Source: a virus
IMG/VR virus record: IMGVR_UViG_3300028840_001417
Span: 1-20,173 of that record
Length of the DNA: 20,173 bases
Direction: 5' to 3' (one strand)
The notes under the pieces are model-generated. The model saw nothing but the letters and a program-made list of their open reading frames with translations, ran no database searches and was not told the DNA's origin. Positions 5,004 through 20,173 of this stretch are shown here, piece after piece. The translations under genes were made by a program, and so were the position numbers. The first letter of the stretch is position 1. Each line of letters begins with the position of its first letter.

Positions 5004-5354
5004 TTATTTTATTAATTTCTCAAGTGAGTGAACCAGTCCCTCCGCAGCTTCAGAGAGTTCGCTGTCAGTGACGTACCTGCAATTTGCAATCTCTACTAAT
5101 CGGCCGATGAGCAAGTGAACCATTTCGTGCTTTGCCGTTCGCTCTATCCAGTCTTTTTCAATGTCAGACTCGTCAAGAACTGTGTTAAACTTGATTGTCA
5201 CTGTCTTTTCAGTAAGATCAATGTCTATAGTAGCGTAAGCATCGCTCAGGCGTTCACGTCTATAGTAAATGTTCCAGTCTAATAGACCGAACTTATCTCG
5301 AAAACGCTCACAATGCTTGATAAAACTATAAAATTGAGCCTTTGTAGTCTTTAT
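5004..5354 (-). CDS. Small HExxH metallopeptidase-like phage protein with an apparent AUA start
   Basis: The frame can be read as 116 aa from ATA at 5354. A GGAG site (5365-5362) sits 7 bases before it, inside the end of the portal gene. The only standard start in frame is GTG at 5201, which would remove 51 residues and has no evident ribosome binding site. The removed part (KTTKAQFYSFIKHCERFRDK, then a W-I-YY segment) looks like the normal N-terminus of small phage proteins of this type. HEMVH at residues 76-80 fits a zinc-binding HExxH helix, followed by a second helix ending LVHSLEKL. Similar small HExxH proteins occur beside phage head genes, but their substrate is unknown. The gene is 2 bases from the portal stop, so it is probably translationally coupled. 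The frame is confident, the AUA start is an inference. Confidence 0.7.
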   Translation of the reverse strand: MKTTKAQFYSFIKHCERFRDKFGLLDWNIYYRRERLSDAYATIDIDLTEKTVTIKFNTVLDESDIEKDWIERTAKHEMVHLLIGRLVEIANCRYVTDSELSEAAEGLVHSLEKLIK

Positions 5355-7757: not shown

Positions 7758-8969
7758 TTATACTCCTTTATGTCTTCCAGGCTCAGACCTGGATTTTAAT
7801 TTGATAACAACCGAGTGACCGGTTGAAAGTGTGCTTTCGTTATAACTGATAAAAGGTTTCACTCTCGCGTCGATATTCTCGATATGAGCTTTACCTTGCG
7901 TTGGCATAGCATTAGTTGGAAATAAAAATGAACTAATATTTCCGAAATTAACATTTCTTAAAACTTTACCGCTTGCTCCGGTGCCAGCGAGACAGATACC
8001 GCTTTCGATATACTCTAAACTCCATATATCTGACTCGCTATAAAGCGTGCCTAAACTAGACCACGTTGCACCATAGTCAATGCTGCGTAAGATCTTACCG
8101 TCTGGTGATGTACCAGCAAATACAATACCGCTGCCAACATGAGTAAAGCATCTTATATAATCTTGAGCAAACTGTCTTCCAAGATCAGACCACGTTGCAC
8201 CATAGTCAATGCTGCGTAAGATCTTACCGCTTGTTCCGGTGCCGGCGAGACAGATACCGTTTCCAAGATAGATAAGCGACAATATTCTTGTCTCACTAGC
8301 CTGTTGACCGAGATCGGACCAGTTTGCACCAGCGTCTGTGCTTCTGAATATTTTGCCGGTGCTGCTAGTTCCAGCTATTGCGATATTGCTTTCCAGATAT
8401 TCTATCGAGTAAACATAAGTTTCGGTAGCAAGTCTTTGAACCCCCCCCCACGTTTCACCATAATCAGTGCTGCGAATTATCTCTCCATTATTATACAATC
8501 CAGCTAAGACAACACCGCTACCGCAATACGCAAGTGAATATACATATAAATCACTTCTTTGTCTTCCTAGGTCAATCCAGTTTGCTCCATAATCAGTGCT
8601 GCGAATTATATGAGCTTGCGAGCCAAGACCTGCAAGACAGATACCGTTTTCAAGATAAAGAACACAATTTATAAATGCCTGAGATGCTTGTTGACCAAGA
8701 TCAAGCCACGTTTTTCCATAGTCAGTGCTGCGAATTATTTTACCACCAGCCGCTGTTCCCGCAATTATTACACCGCTATCGCAATTTGCAAACGATAATA
8801 TTCTTGTCTCACTTGCTTGCTGCCCTAAATCTGACCATATATCAATTCCATTTCTCATTACGAGCTTATCGCCGTCAGTGTCACCGCAAGAGAAAGAGAT
8901 CCAGTCAACGTCTATACCGTTTTCGCTTCCGGGAAACGTGTCTAGCCAGCTCCAGTCTGCGTCAATAAT
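7758..8969 (-). CDS. Seven-bladed Asp-box beta-propeller inserted in a small virion-type domain
   Basis: The frame is open from 8969 to a TAA at 7758 (about 404 codons). Seven repeats of 43 residues follow one another; six end in an Asp-box (S-T/I-D-Y/A-G-x-T/N-W) and the seventh is decayed. Seven such blades would close a sialidase/BNR-type propeller. The flanks match the preceding small gene: DADWSWLDTFPG...DTDGDKLV before the propeller and FLFPTNAMPTQGKAHIENID..VKPFISY after it, against DSDWTWIDLFPG...DADGDICV and ALFPKQAQKTQGPAQIVYYD..IKPVIDY. The propeller therefore sits inside a second copy of that domain. The first ATG (8858) lies within the domain and has no ribosome binding site; upstream only ATT codons occur before a stop. 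Translation may use a +1 shift or re-initiation. A virion-surface or receptor-binding role is inferred. No catalytic sialidase residues were identified. Confidence 0.8.
   Translation of the reverse strand: MIDADWSWLDTFPGSENGIDVDWISFSCGDTDGDKLVMRNGIDIWSDLGQQASETRILSFANCDSGVIIAGTAAGGKIIRSTDYGKTWLDLGQQASQAFINCVLYLENGICLAGLGSQAHIIRSTDYGANWIDLGRQRSDLYVYSLAYCGSGVVLAGLYNNGEIIRSTDYGETWGGVQRLATETYVYSIEYLESNIAIAGTSSTGKIFRSTDAGANWSDLGQQASETRILSLIYLGNGICLAGTGTSGKILRSIDYGATWSDLGRQFAQDYIRCFTHVGSGIVFAGTSPDGKILRSIDYGATWSSLGTLYSESDIWSLEYIESGICLAGTGASGKVLRNVNFGNISSFLFPTNAMPTQGKAHIENIDARVKPFISYNESTLSTGHSVVIKLKSRSEPGRHKGV
8441..8449 (-). repeat. G9 homopolymer inside the propeller gene
   Basis: Nine C on the plus strand (nine G in the mRNA) encode W-G-G at the start of blade 4, where the other blades have W-S/L/I-D-L-G. 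The frame is intact as given; a change of one base would truncate the protein. Confidence 0.9.
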
Positions 8970-9517: not shown

Positions 9518-9848
9518 TAGTCTTGAGCTCTCTGGCAATCTTCTCAACTTTTTCTTTGTCGCTGGGAGCGTAACCCCACATAAGCATACCGTCTTCCCGG
9601 AAGCCGATTACGACCGGCCGATCTTTTTTGAAGACTTTAGCGTCCTTCAAATAGATGCCGTTCCAGTCAATGCGAAGTTTTTGAACGCCGGCGTCACTTG
9701 CAACCCTTTCTGTATTTTGCTTGTTGATTGCTTGGTCGACGCTGCCGGCGCTCAAGCTGTCTAAGAAATAATGATTAAACGCAGATCCAGCGATAAAAAA
9801 AACACCCGCCAGAACTATCACGTCAAGAATATTAATTTTCTTTTTCAT
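9504..9848 (-). CDS. 114-aa membrane-anchored hypothetical protein
   Basis: Not recognised. AGGAGG lies 7 bases before the ATG at 9848. Residues 1-6 are basic, 8-27 form a single hydrophobic span (LDVIVLAGVFFIAGSAF), and the rest is a soluble domain containing LRIDWNGIYLKDAKVF, RPVVIGFREDGMLMWGY and a short helix (EKVEKIARELK). The span could be an uncleaved signal anchor, which would put the domain in the periplasm or outside. The next gene is another small membrane peptide, so the pair could act at the host envelope, for example in lysis or exclusion; this is inferred from topology only. The start region has been duplicated upstream (9920-9954). Confidence 0.75.
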   Translation of the reverse strand: MKKKINILDVIVLAGVFFIAGSAFNHYFLDSLSAGSVDQAINKQNTERVASDAGVQKLRIDWNGIYLKDAKVFKKDRPVVIGFREDGMLMWGYAPSDKEKVEKIARELKTSDPD

Positions 9849-9954
9849 GCCCCAGCCTCCTATAAGAAAAGTAAGAAAAGTTTGTAAATTTTTTCATAAA
9901 TTTGGCAAATCATTAAAAAAATTTTCTTTTTCATGCCCCAGCCTCCTATAAGAA
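9834..9954 (-). repeat. 86-bp offset tandem duplication carrying a ribosome binding site and start codon
   Basis: A 35-bp block (AGGAGG site, spacer, ATG and first four codons of the 114-aa gene) occurs without change at 9834-9868 and again at 9920-9954. The sequence just upstream of each block is also related: both encode a C-terminus of the type C-K/Q-I-Y-E-K/R-x-Y-K-L-F-L before TAG. The left copy of that part has drifted and gained CTTTTCTTA. Confidence 0.9.
9860..9934 (-). CDS. 24-aa chimeric mini-ORF created by the duplication
   Basis: The second ATG with AGGAGG (9934) opens a 24-codon frame. It begins like the 114-aa protein (MKKKI) and ends like the upstream 49-aa protein (ICQIYEKIYKLFLLFL). 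It is probably a by-product of the duplication rather than a functional gene, but its translation signals are complete. Translation would end 12 bases before the ATG of the 114-aa gene and could couple to it. Confidence 0.35.
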   Translation of the reverse strand: MKKKIFLMICQIYEKIYKLFLLFL

Positions 9955-10095: not shown

Positions 10096-10120
10096 AAAAC
10101 ATAGCTCCCGCATTTCCTAT

Positions 10121-10149
10121 ATTATAACACAAATTTTTAGAAAAGTCAA
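10121..10149 (-). promoter_or_regulatory. Promoter copy 1 (TTGACT-N17-TATAAT), minus strand
   Basis: The -35 box is 10149-10144, the spacer is 17 bases and the -10 box is 10126-10121. All 29 bases are identical to the copies at 13728-13756 and 17062-17090. It heads the small-gene, propeller and portal module. The expected transcription start (about 10114) falls beside an ATG at 10113. Confidence 0.85.
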
Positions 10150-13139: not shown

Positions 13140-13307
13140 TTATTGTCCTCCACTTGAATGATGTTTTTTCACTTTCTGGTACAGCATGCGAAGCCGATCA
13201 GTGAATATCTGGCCCGATGGCGCCATGTGATAAGGTCTGCCGCTGGCGTTTGTGACCCGATCCCCGTAGATCATGCGTCTTATTGCTTTGGCCTTTTCAC
13301 CTCTCAT
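13140..13307 (-). CDS. 55-aa basic hypothetical protein
   Basis: The ATG at 13307 overlaps the stop of the Zn-ribbon gene (GAATGA), and the TAA is 1 base before the next ATG. The product MRGEKAKAIRRMIYGDRVTN continues with GRPYHMAPSGQIFTDRLRML and ends in KKHHSSGGQ. It is basic and may bind nucleic acid. The phrase RP-Y-x-M-x-x-S-G-Q-I-F-x-D-RLR is distinctive but I cannot assign it. The coupling on both sides supports a real gene. Confidence 0.65.
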   Translation of the reverse strand: MRGEKAKAIRRMIYGDRVTNASGRPYHMAPSGQIFTDRLRMLYQKVKKHHSSGGQ

Positions 13308-13615
13308 TCGTTATCACTCTCGAATTTAGCCTCGCCCCTGCTTGAGTTTCGCTGTCTGTCTAGTCTGGTTTGTCCGGGCCTCATCCTGCTTTGCTCCATG
13401 ACTCGCTTTCCATCCGAACCCTTCAAAACAACGTTTTTGTTTGTGTAGCCTCTGCGAGTATAGGAGTTTCTTCTGCCAAAGTATACAAGACATGCTCCAA
13501 GCTGTTTTTTCATCTCAGTAAGGCAGTGGATACACCCAGGCGCCGGCTCGTCCACACCCTGAATAAGCTCGATTTCTCTGCCACATTTTTGACATTTCCA
13601 TTGGTAAATTGGAAT
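13304..13615 (-). CDS. FmdB-type zinc-ribbon protein with an apparent AUU start
   Basis: Read from ATT 13615 the protein begins (M)PIYQWKCQKCG, nearly the standard N-terminus of the FmdB/regulatory zinc-ribbon family (MPIYEYxCxxCG). GGAGG (13628-13624) lies 8 bases before this ATT. The nearest standard codon, GTG 13622-13624, overlaps the GGAGG itself and cannot be served by it. A second cysteine pair (GCIHC) about 18 residues on completes the ribbon. The rest (TEMKKQLGACLVYFGRRNSY and a basic tail) is disordered and basic, ending in FESDNE; total 103 aa. It is the first gene after promoter copy 2 and its attenuator-like leader. A regulatory or nucleic-acid-binding role is inferred from the fold. 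Confidence 0.75.
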   Translation of the reverse strand: MPIYQWKCQKCGREIELIQGVDEPAPGCIHCLTEMKKQLGACLVYFGRRNSYTRRGYTNKNVVLKGSDGKRVMEQSRMRPGQTRLDRQRNSSRGEAKFESDNE

Positions 13616-13623
13616 GTTAGCCA

Positions 13624-13628
13624 CCTCC
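13624..13628 (-). promoter_or_regulatory. Shine-Dalgarno site that points to the AUU start at 13615
   Basis: GGAGG inside a GGGGAGG run lies 8 bases before ATT. It overlaps the GTG that a standard gene caller would choose. Confidence 0.6.
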
Positions 13629-13644
13629 CCAATAAGGAATTTTT

Positions 13645-13678
13645 AAAAAGTGGGGGGTTTAACCTGTGGCCCCCCCCC
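13645..13678 (-). terminator. Attenuator-like G9/C6 hairpin with T5 in the leader of the Zn-ribbon gene
   Basis: On the minus strand nine G (13678-13670) can pair with six C (13657-13652), followed after AC by TTTTT (13649-13645). It lies between promoter copy 2 and the first gene of its operon, so transcription would be ended early unless the hairpin is relieved. Further upstream in the leader, two near-direct repeats (AGGCTGGGC) occur. Confidence 0.55.
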
Positions 13679-13727
13679 GAAGGGACCTTGCCTCGCCCAG
13701 CCTGGCCTTGCCCAGCCTAACAACCTT

Positions 13728-13756
13728 ATTATAACACAAATTTTTAGAAAAGTCAA
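13728..13756 (-). promoter_or_regulatory. Promoter copy 2 (TTGACT-N17-TATAAT), minus strand
   Basis: The -35 box is 13756-13751 and the -10 box is 13733-13728, with all 29 bases identical to copies 1 and 3. The TGA stop of the nuclease-like gene lies inside the -35 box. It heads the Zn-ribbon, SSB and terminase module. Confidence 0.85.
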
Positions 13757-14112
13757 GTTTTTTGTGTCCTCGCAACTAATATGTTGTTTTTTATACAAAA
13801 ATTGATAATCCTAGGTTCCCACCGTCCCGTCTTAGCGAGTTTCCGCCAACCCCAGGCTTGCAAAACAGTATTCGGGACGCTCAACCACACCCTCGAATTT
13901 TCATGCCCCATCAACTTTTTCACACGCTTTGACATATTCGATCCGTCAGTCGTTTGGATACCGCAGATTTTACCGCGACCAACCGAAATGATGTCCAGTA
14001 TCCCCAAAAAGTCTTTTCTTACTCTGGCCCTGGGAATCCAGCGCTCAACCACGTCAGCCGTATATCCCTGCTCTCTCAGGCGCTTCAACGTTCTTGAAGT
14101 TGGTGAACTCAT
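13753..14112 (-). CDS. 119-aa PD-(D/E)XK nuclease-like protein
   Basis: The product contains TLKRLREQGYTADVVERW at the N-terminus, then ARVRKDFLGILDIISVG, KICGIQTTDGSN and a C-terminal RRK/WEPRII strand. This order (helix, arginine-rich loop, L-D-I strand with D40, then a strand with Q53-x-T55, then SNMSKRVKKL) is that of a small phage family with a restriction-endonuclease-like fold. The usual E/Q-x-K position is Q-T-T here, so activity is uncertain. It could serve in recombination or genome processing. The ATG overlaps the stop of the 60-aa Zn gene (ATGA) and the stop lies in promoter copy 2. A fold-level relative may exist without catalysis. Confidence 0.7.
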   Translation of the reverse strand: MSSPTSRTLKRLREQGYTADVVERWIPRARVRKDFLGILDIISVGRGKICGIQTTDGSNMSKRVKKLMGHENSRVWLSVPNTVLQAWGWRKLAKTGRWEPRIINFCIKNNILVARTQKT

Positions 14113-17046: not shown

Positions 17047-18597
17047 TTAATTATTTCTTCCATTATAACACAAATTTTTAGAAAAGTCAATGAAATATGT
17101 GCCTTTTTTTCTGGCGTGTGCTTGTTTTATATTTAAATGCGTGATAAAACTAATAAATTTATGGTCCGGTTCCTCCTTTCTATCAGACATTCCTCGTGGC
17201 CACACGCCAAAACGTTTTCGGTATGTGTGGGCGATCCATCCGCGTTTATATCCCTTACGTTTAGCGTATACCCGGGCCATCGCGTAGAAATTTTGTTTTT
17301 CCTCTTTGGTCGCTTTCTTTTTTTGTTTCTCTTTTCCCTTTACCCTGACAAGGTCGTCGTCAGTCGTTTCGATCAGTTTACCATAATTTCTGACTTCAGC
17401 TCCGCAGCGAGGACATTTGGACCCCTCAAAGACGAACATGCAGTTTTTACAAGTCATGAGCTTTTTCTCTTTTTCACGTTTTTTCTTCTTTGACCACGCC
17501 AGCTCTTTGTCGTCGAGAGTCCACTCGACCGGATCATCAACAAACCCGTGGGCATCTACGCAGCCCGAGTGATCAATCAAAATACAATCTTCTTTGTACG
17601 GGTATGGTCTCAGACCACGACCAGCCATTTGAAAGTAAAAAGCGAAAGATCGGGTCGGGCGAGCAATCACGATACATGACACCCATGGGAAGTCCGTTCC
17701 CTCTGTTGCAATCCCCACGTTGGTCATGACCTGCACGTCACCGTCCCTGAATCTTCGATAAATATCCTGGCGAACATCAGTCGGGGTTCGTGCGTCAACA
17801 TGCTCGATAGAAACTCCGCAGCGCTCGAATTCTTGTTTGATTGCTAGACTATGCTTGACGTTGACACAGAATATCAGCGTCGGTCGCTCTGGCGCGATTC
17901 TAAACCATTGAGTGTAAACATCACCAACAAGTTTTGGTTTATTCATCGCCTCACCGAGTTCCTTTTTTGCATAGTCATTCATTTTAATGGGGATCTTGGA
18001 TAGGTCTGGCGCGTCAGGCGCATAGTAGACCATTGGAACTAAATATCCTTGCTCTGTCAGTTCTCTCACGTCTGCGCTCGATACTATTCTATCGTAGACA
18101 CGACCGAGTCCACGACCATCAGCCCTACATGGAGTTGCAGTTAGACCGAGAATGACAGCCTTCTTTTTGTAGATTTCGAGCACACTCATATAGGTCGAAC
18201 ATACACTTGAATGGGCTTCGTCTACGATCACGATCTGAGCGTTATGAACCCAAAAATTAGACTCAGGGTCGTCGAGCTTTGCGCGTCTGTGATAGGTCTG
18301 AATCGTCGCGATCATGATTCGCCTTGAGAAGTCTGTCTCTTCTCCGGCCATAATAAGGCCAACTTCGTCACCGATACCGAAGCTGATGAAGCGATCTCGA
18401 CATTGATAAACTAGATCACGCTTATTAACAAGAAACAGAACATTGTTTCCTTTATTGATCGCGGCGCGAGCTACCTCGGCAGCCTCAATTGTTTTTCCTG
18501 CCCCCGTTGGAGCTTGCAGAATGATTTTTCGATTTCCTGTCTTGATAGCGTGTCGAGCTGCGCCTAAATGATCATTTTGATATTTTCTCAATTCCAT
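17047..18597 (-). CDS. SF2 DEAH-type helicase with zinc ribbon
   Basis: The 516-aa enzyme has the motifs of a superfamily 2 helicase/translocase: Q-type RKYQ near the N-terminus, Walker A APTGAGKT (29-36), TIQTYHRR, DEAH (126-129), LTATPCR (about 153), and motif VI QMAGRGLRPY (about 330). After it come a coiled, lysine-rich part and a CxxC...CPRCG zinc ribbon (about 380-400), then a basic C-terminal domain (KRGWIAHTYRKRFGVWP). It probably unwinds or remodels DNA in phage replication or recombination. The ATG overlaps the end of methyltransferase 2 by 10 bases and no close ribosome binding site is seen. Its last 15 codons contain promoter copy 3, so the C-terminus is partly shaped by the promoter. 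Confidence 0.92.
   Translation of the reverse strand: MELRKYQNDHLGAARHAIKTGNRKIILQAPTGAGKTIEAAEVARAAINKGNNVLFLVNKRDLVYQCRDRFISFGIGDEVGLIMAGEETDFSRRIMIATIQTYHRRAKLDDPESNFWVHNAQIVIVDEAHSSVCSTYMSVLEIYKKKAVILGLTATPCRADGRGLGRVYDRIVSSADVRELTEQGYLVPMVYYAPDAPDLSKIPIKMNDYAKKELGEAMNKPKLVGDVYTQWFRIAPERPTLIFCVNVKHSLAIKQEFERCGVSIEHVDARTPTDVRQDIYRRFRDGDVQVMTNVGIATEGTDFPWVSCIVIARPTRSFAFYFQMAGRGLRPYPYKEDCILIDHSGCVDAHGFVDDPVEWTLDDKELAWSKKKKREKEKKLMTCKNCMFVFEGSKCPRCGAEVRNYGKLIETTDDDLVRVKGKEKQKKKATKEEKQNFYAMARVYAKRKGYKRGWIAHTYRKRFGVWPRGMSDRKEEPDHKFISFITHLNIKQAHARKKGTYFIDFSKNLCYNGRNN
17062..17090 (-). promoter_or_regulatory. Promoter copy 3 (TTGACT-N17-TATAAT), minus strand
   Basis: The -35 box is 17090-17085 and the -10 box is 17067-17062, identical over 29 bases to copies 1 and 2. 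It lies inside the 3' end of the helicase gene. Confidence 0.85.
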
Positions 18598-19479: not shown

Positions 19480-19515
19480 ATCATGATCAACACGAACACA
19501 AGGAGATGTAAAATG
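19480..19515 (+). repeat. Leader repeat unit 1 (ribosome binding site cassette)
   Basis: ATCATGATCAACAC, then GAACACAAGGAG, a 7-base spacer and ATG (19513). Closely similar units precede the next two genes. Confidence 0.85.
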
Positions 19516-19698
19516 ACAGCAAAAGAAATGAGCAATATAATTGGCAAAACAGGAATGTTTCATGAAAATGGTTTAAAGTTCAGGGTTAAGATTAATGACG
19601 TAAGAACTTCATACGGAAGGATTCATTATCTGATTAGCCCCGTTTGTGGCGACGGCGAAAAGTGGGTTGATTTTAGCAGGGTAATGACAATATCATGA
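19513..19698 (+). CDS. 61-aa hypothetical protein, first gene of the plus-strand operon
   Basis: Not recognised. AAGGAG is 7 bases before ATG 19513. An in-frame ATG at 19483, ten codons earlier, falls where a leaderless mRNA would begin, so a second form with MINTNTRRCK in front is possible. The product MTAKEMSNIIGKTGMFHENG contains GLKFRVKINDVRTSYGRIHY and WVDFSRVMTIS, which looks like a small beta-rich domain. It is AT-rich, unlike the genes to the left. Small genes of this type near phage control regions are often early host-takeover proteins, but nothing specific can be said. Confidence 0.75.
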   Translation: MTAKEMSNIIGKTGMFHENGLKFRVKINDVRTSYGRIHYLISPVCGDGEKWVDFSRVMTIS

Positions 19699-19727
19699 TC
19701 AACACAAACACAAGGAGAAGGGAAATA
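19692..19727 (+). repeat. Leader repeat unit 2, ending in ATA instead of ATG
   Basis: ATCATGATCAACAC, ACACAAGGAG with a 7-base spacer AAGGGAA, then ATA (19725). The equivalent place in units 1 and 3 is ATG. Confidence 0.85.
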
Positions 19728-19964
19728 AAAACATATAAGTTATCACTATATGGAAGAAAATTAACCTGGGAGACATGGAAAACAATTGGCGGCTGCGGGA
19801 TCCCAAACTGTACAAGTGCTTATCATTCATTAGGGCCGCAATCAAAATGGGAAAATATTATGCTCGGAGACATAGAAGATGCTTGTCCTTTTACCGGGAG
19901 ATCATTAGCGAGGTTTGCAATAGAGCGTTTAAAATTGAATGAATTAGTTGATATTATAGGATAA
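19725..19964 (+). CDS. 79-aa hypothetical protein, AUA or upstream AUG start
   Basis: Not recognised. Alignment of its leader with those of its neighbours places the start at ATA 19725, 7 bases after AAGGAG, giving (M)KTYKLSLYGRKLTWETWKTI. The alternative is ATG 19695, which overlaps the stop of the first gene (ATGA) and would translate the ribosome binding site into an INTNTRRRE extension. Residues about 26-35 (GGCGIPNCTS) and a later C (DACPFTG) could bind metal. The C-terminal SLARFAIERLKLNELVDII is helical. It belongs to the plus-strand operon. The frame is confident and the start is open. Confidence 0.72.
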   Translation: MKTYKLSLYGRKLTWETWKTIGGCGIPNCTSAYHSLGPQSKWENIMLGDIEDACPFTGRSLARFAIERLKLNELVDIIG

Positions 19965-19990
19965 ACACAAACACAAGGAGAAGGGAAATG
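19963..19990 (+). repeat. Leader repeat unit 3
   Basis: AAACACAAACACAAGGAG, spacer AAGGGAA and ATG (19988). It matches unit 2 over the ribosome binding site but lacks the ATCATGATC part. Confidence 0.85.
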
Positions 19991-20173
19991 GAAAATTTGT
20001 TTATACCTGGACTTTTAATGATAGTTATAGGCGTTATAACGGTCATATATCAAATCATCAATTACGTGGCCACCGGATATTGGATGACAATTAAACTTGC
20101 TGATGGAGTTTATAGGTGTCTTCAGTGGATCGACAGTACGTTGGCCCGCGACCTTGTACTCTGGATAATAAAT
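19988..20173 (+). CDS. Membrane protein, C-terminus cut by window edge
   Basis: The frame is open from ATG 19988 to the right edge (62 codons). It starts MENLFIPGLLMIVIGVITVI and continues YQIINYVATGYW, giving one clear membrane span (about residues 6-25), then an amphipathic part (LADGVYRCLQWIDSTLARD). AAGGAG is 7 bases before the ATG. It is unrecognised and is the third gene in the repeated-leader operon. A small inner-membrane phage protein is the most that can be said. Confidence 0.75.
   Translation, partial: MENLFIPGLLMIVIGVITVIYQIINYVATGYWMTIKLADGVYRCLQWIDSTLARDLVLWIIN

Follow-up and report, generated by a model that had tools for sequence, protein, structure and literature searches.

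Does a phage gene of the FmdB zinc-ribbon type begin at AUU and, if so, what brought such a codon to its start and what keeps it there? The gene in question lies on the minus strand of an IMG/VR record of 20173 bases, the whole of which we call the window and which represents a tailed phage: portal, scaffold, major head protein and terminase are all present. At the FmdB-type start the minus strand reads TTATTGGGGAGGTGGCTAAC-ATT-CCAATTTACCAATGG, and the reading frame from ATT gives (M)PIYQWKCQKCGREIEL... up to a stop at 13304 (Table 1). We put the probability that translation of this gene begins at AUU 13615, with a promoter, an extended Shine-Dalgarno sequence (SD) and the initiator tRNA leading to a normal zinc ribbon, at roughly 0.88.

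Table 1. Features of the window discussed in the text, with start assignments as judged from sequence
Feature	Position	Strand	Remarks
SprT-like gene, probable ATA start (5354-5352)	5004..5354	minus	GGAG-7 nt-ATA
FmdB-type zinc-ribbon gene	13304..13615	minus	103 aa counted from AUU
Putative ATT (AUU) start codon	13613..13615	minus	occupies the Met position of the FmdB family
Predicted 5' leader of the FmdB-type mRNA	13616..13720	minus	GC-rich
GTG, rejected alternative start (MANIPIY...)	13622..13624	minus	overlaps SD
SD core GGAGG	13624..13628	minus	inside GGGGAGGTGG; anti-SD duplex -16.2 kcal/mol
Sigma70-type promoter TTGACT-N17-TATAAT	13728..13756	minus	11/12 consensus bases; 1 of 3 copies in the window
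Small gene, ambiguous ATA start	19725..19964	plus	ATA 19725 aligns with ATG in two sister copies of the leader

Anatomy and family register of the FmdB-type start

A preliminary description of this DNA had pointed to a GGAGG 8 bases (8 nt) before ATT and to an FmdB-type frame running from ATT, and both were recovered when we re-read the minus strand. A duplex as strong as the one ahead of this ATT is equalled at only ~0.02% of window positions, and an in-frame stop lies 9 codons upstream. The sole in-frame NTG is a GTG that begins on the last G of GGAGG; it had been described as the only standard start nearby, situated within GGAGG, and it does share one base with the SD. Initiation at this GTG, a common start codon in the right frame, would yield MANIPIYQW..., a product longer by three residues, and a comparable GTG stands three codons upstream of the ATT in one other locus (L167). 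However, this overlap leaves no SD free at a usable spacing: the duplex available to it (-7.3 kcal/mol, versus -16.2 for ATT) is reached solely with bases that abut the GTG itself. FmdB relatives, moreover, begin directly before Pro-Ile-Tyr, and six relatives with ATT have no NTG available at all. We consider a start at GTG improbable.

The register of the protein points the same way. Pfam PF09723 (Zn_ribbon_8) matches the window protein with E=1.1e-7 and 32.2 bits, just missing the curated cut-off of 34.4, and since profile position 2 aligns to residue 2 of the protein, ATT stands at the family's Met. The N-terminal (M)P-I-Y and the first C-x2-C-G knuckle are present (PIYQWKCQKCG), as is the second C-x2-C knuckle (PGCIHCL). 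Aligning FmdB-like proteins of phages had been suggested as a check, and the result agrees with the proposed start: relatives start immediately before Pro-Ile-Tyr, with NTG or ATH (ATT, ATC or ATA), and T4-like phages, which are weak matches (E about 0.05), have ATG at the aligned position. No direct relatives of the window's FmdB were found in the viral contigs searched, terminase relatives (39-43% identity) carry no FmdB, a search with portal returned one weak locus, and a literature search on phage FmdB found no paper. The assignment of ATT in the window appears well supported by family register and anatomy, rather than by a direct ATG/ATT pair or a close relative with an NTG start.

Folding of the predicted leader (z 0.75) gave nothing beyond shuffled expectation, and a leader hairpin controlling the SD was rejected, as the fold is no better than that of shuffles. 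As a separate observation, a 38-nt element occurs three times on the minus strand (10112-10149, 13719-13756 and 17053-17090), once before the FmdB gene; each contains an almost perfect sigma70 promoter, TTGACTTTTCTAAAAATTTGTGTTATAAT or a sequence much like it.

AUH starts across FmdB-type genes

If AUU initiation at this locus were an isolated oddity, one might suspect the base itself. The window record is metagenomic and damage commonly turns G into T, so an original ATG might have become ATT through damage, or the ATT might be an error of sequencing or assembly. Yet ATT is found at the same position, with an SD, in 10 other records from several unrelated phages, and in three groups it is carried by two different records each (L137/L146, L142/L164 and L085/L086). 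We regard an artefact or a damaged start as even less probable than a start at GTG.

Our census covered the codons preceding the Pro of FmdB-type N-termini, identified by pattern scans of IMG/VR. When GGAGG was required 4-9 nt upstream of the codon, viral NNG matches comprised 33 loci, all of them NTG (24 ATG, 5 GTG, 4 CTG), and viral NNH matches comprised three, all of them ATH (ATT, ATT and ATC). Among 84,980 genomes of bacteria and archaea, the same NNH scan returned a single match, an ATA in a Gemmatimonadetes MAG; a strict pattern in 395 Gemmatimonadota genomes gave two ATG and one ATA, numbers too small for a firm rate. Without the SD requirement, ATT starts were found at ten loci (L085, L086, L137, L142, L144, L146, L153, L164, L167, L175), ATC at two (L087, L149) and ATA at L138 alone, the weakest case, which has an ATG upstream and a poor SD. 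The remaining non-NNG matches were set aside: either the codon just upstream is NTG (as in proteins starting MS-PIY, MC-PIY or similar), or the match is due to chance or is not FmdB. Note that the patterns demand P-I-Y and certain residues, so that census counts are not population rates, and that the NTG set is partly GGAGG-selected, except in the comparison of SD strength below.

In six of the ATT loci (L085, L137, L142, L146, L153 and L164) the frame is closed by a stop 3-6 codons upstream, none of the intervening codons is NTG, and the start must therefore be ATT or another non-NTG codon. In L085, taking the first NTG as the start would delete the first zinc knuckle. BLASTP places the viral ATH genes in eight clusters, the window being among the singletons. 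Comparison across loci shows that an apparent AUH start with the same anatomy recurs in unrelated phages, across six or more further groups of related genes, and so lends strong support to the earlier proposal that the window's FmdB-type gene starts at AUU. Duplexes between SD and anti-SD are stronger before ATH (median -11.7 kcal/mol) than before NTG (-6.6 kcal/mol; p=7.6e-4, with the NTG set unselected for SD). Gene callers that admit only ATG, GTG and TTG will mis-start or truncate AUH genes, so the trait is likely undercounted.

One FmdB subfamily comprises starts at ATC (L087, L149), ATT (L175), CTG (L104) and GTG (L183), with ATG in L130 alone, a pattern that would fit a preference for weak starts. 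Several members of this subfamily immediately precede a tail gene. Across the FmdB loci more widely, the base at -1 of the start is C in 10 of 15 ATH loci versus 4 of 40 NTG loci (p=6.6e-5, the loci being partly related).

Homing endonuclease genes at FmdB starts

How might such codons arise? In 6 of the 14 viral ATH loci, a count that includes the window, a homing endonuclease gene (HEG) lies immediately upstream of FmdB, of the HNH type in L085 and L086 and of the GIY-YIG type in L137, L146, L149 and L175; Pfam confirms HNH and, at other loci, GIY-YIG and NUMOD-like domains. The 36 upstream neighbours of NTG loci include no HEG domain (0/36; Fisher p=1.9e-4, or about 0.009 at the level of lineages using rounded group counts), keeping in mind that the effective sample is smaller than the number of loci because loci within a group are related. 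Five of the six cassettes open with NTGCCNATH, that is, the FmdB start, and close with SD-ATHCCNATHTAY. L137 and L146 retain ATGCCCATCTACGAT before the endonuclease; at L086, L149 and L175 it is the endonuclease's own frame that starts at NTGCCNATH; and the two start copies of L086 and L149 differ, over their first three codons, at the start codon alone. The GIY-YIG proteins ahead of two distinct FmdB subfamilies share 41-53% identity.

A natural ATG/ATT pair captures the arrangement. L088, which is the same record as L085, is 99.5-99.7% identical to L089 apart from one insertion, and the FmdB proteins of L085/L088 (ATT) and L089 (ATG) are 100% identical over 157 aa. L089 starts AAATA-ATG-CCAATC; L088 reads AAATA-ATG-[HNH gene]-AAGGAGGTGTAAC-ATT-CCTATC. 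The insertion, 484 bp and almost all ORF, sits exactly at the FmdB start codon, with the HNH gene capturing the original ATG and its tail supplying a new SD and ATT. At the six HEG loci an endonuclease gene occupies the start that FmdB once had, and FmdB, thus displaced, would restart at AUH using an SD from the endonuclease tail.

Free-standing GIY-YIG (seg) and HNH (mob) genes are likewise inserted between phage genes in T4-type phages (PMC2988022), as in the six ATH FmdB loci. The FmdB cases differ in that the insertion falls on the start codon of the next gene, with an AUH restart, an arrangement not described in the literature searched and one that the window does not have. Displacement by an HEG may explain the origin of 6 of the 14 AUH loci, the window not being one of them: upstream of its FmdB gene there is no HEG, only promoter and leader, and the gene preceding it (13753-14112) has no Pfam match. 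A HEG scar in the window was rejected, there being no upstream copy of NTGCCNATH. We likewise rejected an intron, such as a group I intron carrying an endonuclease, as the cause of ATT, since the window, L085, L086, L137, L146, L149 and L175 have no Rfam match and the 484-nt insert of L088 is almost all ORF. That HEGs generally cause ATH was rejected as well: in cultured phages the genes behind six GIY-YIG relatives start with ATG (5) or TTG (1).

A different link between HEGs and AUU would be selection on the homing site. Suppose that GIY-YIG or HNH endonucleases recognise the conserved FmdB start, ATGCCNATHTAY: a change from ATG to ATT would spoil the site while keeping the protein, and ATT loci free of HEGs, including the window, would be escaped or HEG-cured alleles. 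The excess of HEGs directly upstream of ATH starts, the cassettes that begin at NTGCCNATH with copies differing at the start codon, and the insertion in L088/L089 exactly on that codon are what one might expect under this scenario, which is compatible with initiation at AUU. However, free-standing T4 endonucleases usually cut at a distance of hundreds of bases or more, far from the gene that encodes them (PMC2988022), and neither the window nor seven other ATH loci hold any HEG remnant. We consider it unlikely, although if it were true, the FmdB start codon would be a homing site, and AUH would escape cutting and still be translated at the price of a stronger SD. Whatever its cause, recurrent AUH together with a natural ATG/ATT pair that differs by an HEG insertion makes for a clean system in which to ask why such codons persist.

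Probable initiation at AUU and other unusual starts in the window

In E. coli, infC and pcnB have AUU behind a good SD and give low output, and the infC product, IF3, autoregulates its own gene. The window's FmdB resembles both genes in having AUU behind a good SD; they are cellular genes, however, and FmdB differs from infC, which is regulated by its own product, in that to our knowledge it has no known link to initiation. The preliminary description took infC to be the main natural case of AUU, which is too narrow a view: AUU is also the start of pcnB, for which PMC13009471 lists a reference, and of cvfC1 in S. aureus, where ccpN, citZ and infC have AUA (PMC13009471). These S. aureus starts have extended SDs, and reporters for cvfC1, ccpN and citZ gave ~10% of AUG output (PMC13009471). 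The product of cvfC1 is, like FmdB, a small putative zinc-finger protein; the S. aureus starts are chromosomal and were mapped by Ribo-Ret and reporters (PMC13009471), whereas the phage FmdB starts are known from sequence alone. Streptomyces sigR, a regulatory gene, also has a rare start codon, GTC rather than AUU, and is repressed by IF3 (PMC5472188). Only a few cellular genes are known to start at AUU; the phage FmdB family returns to AUU, AUC or AUA in several separate groups.

By analogy with these systems, AUU might be kept for regulation, with discrimination by IF3 holding the product low or letting it vary with IF3 or the state of the ribosome during infection. Both the low output of AUU and AUA starts in S. 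aureus and the repression of sigR fit this idea, as does the subfamily in which all members but L130 have weak starts. On the other hand, we noticed no IF3-like gene in the window, and a strong SD and a strong promoter oppose low output. Regulation would concern the reason for AUU and is compatible with its use; as such it strikes us as plausible but tentative, and more likely than selection on a homing site.

As to how AUU itself would be used, initiation in the window is probably weak and compensated by the SD. A strong copy of the sigma70-type promoter would drive the FmdB-type transcript; the extended SD (GGGGAGGUGG) would retain the 30S subunit 8 nt from AUU; and the initiator tRNA would begin with formyl-Met despite the mismatch at the third position, giving the MPIYQW... 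zinc ribbon at a reduced rate. We infer AUU use in vivo, Met as the first residue and reduced output from these features.

The AUU had earlier been grouped with two AUA starts, at 5354 and 19725, only the first of which stands as probable. Its context is GGAG-AATAACC-ATA, directly after the portal stop; the frame from ATA has no NTG for 51 codons, the first coming at residue 52. A SprT-like match, weak at E=0.024, already begins at residue 32, ahead of this only NTG. No relatives of the gene were found in the phage records searched. The start at 19725 is ambiguous: an in-frame ATG at 19695, 30 nt upstream, overlaps the preceding stop, while the ATA sits in the second of three leader copies, the other two of which have ATG there. 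These copies (AACACAAACACAAGGAG..., plus strand, 19480-19521, 19692-19733 and 19955-19996) each end at a start position (ATG, ATA and ATG, respectively), like a repeated ribosome-binding-site cassette. A perfect 35-nt duplication on the minus strand (9834-9868 and 9920-9954, 86 nt apart) likewise comprises a ribosome-binding site and a gene start (TTCTTATAGGAGGCTGGGGCATGAAAAAGAAAATT). Finally, 7758-8858 on the minus strand encodes a protein with 43-aa repeats (a DNA period of 129 nt), each with S-x-D-x-G-x-x-W.
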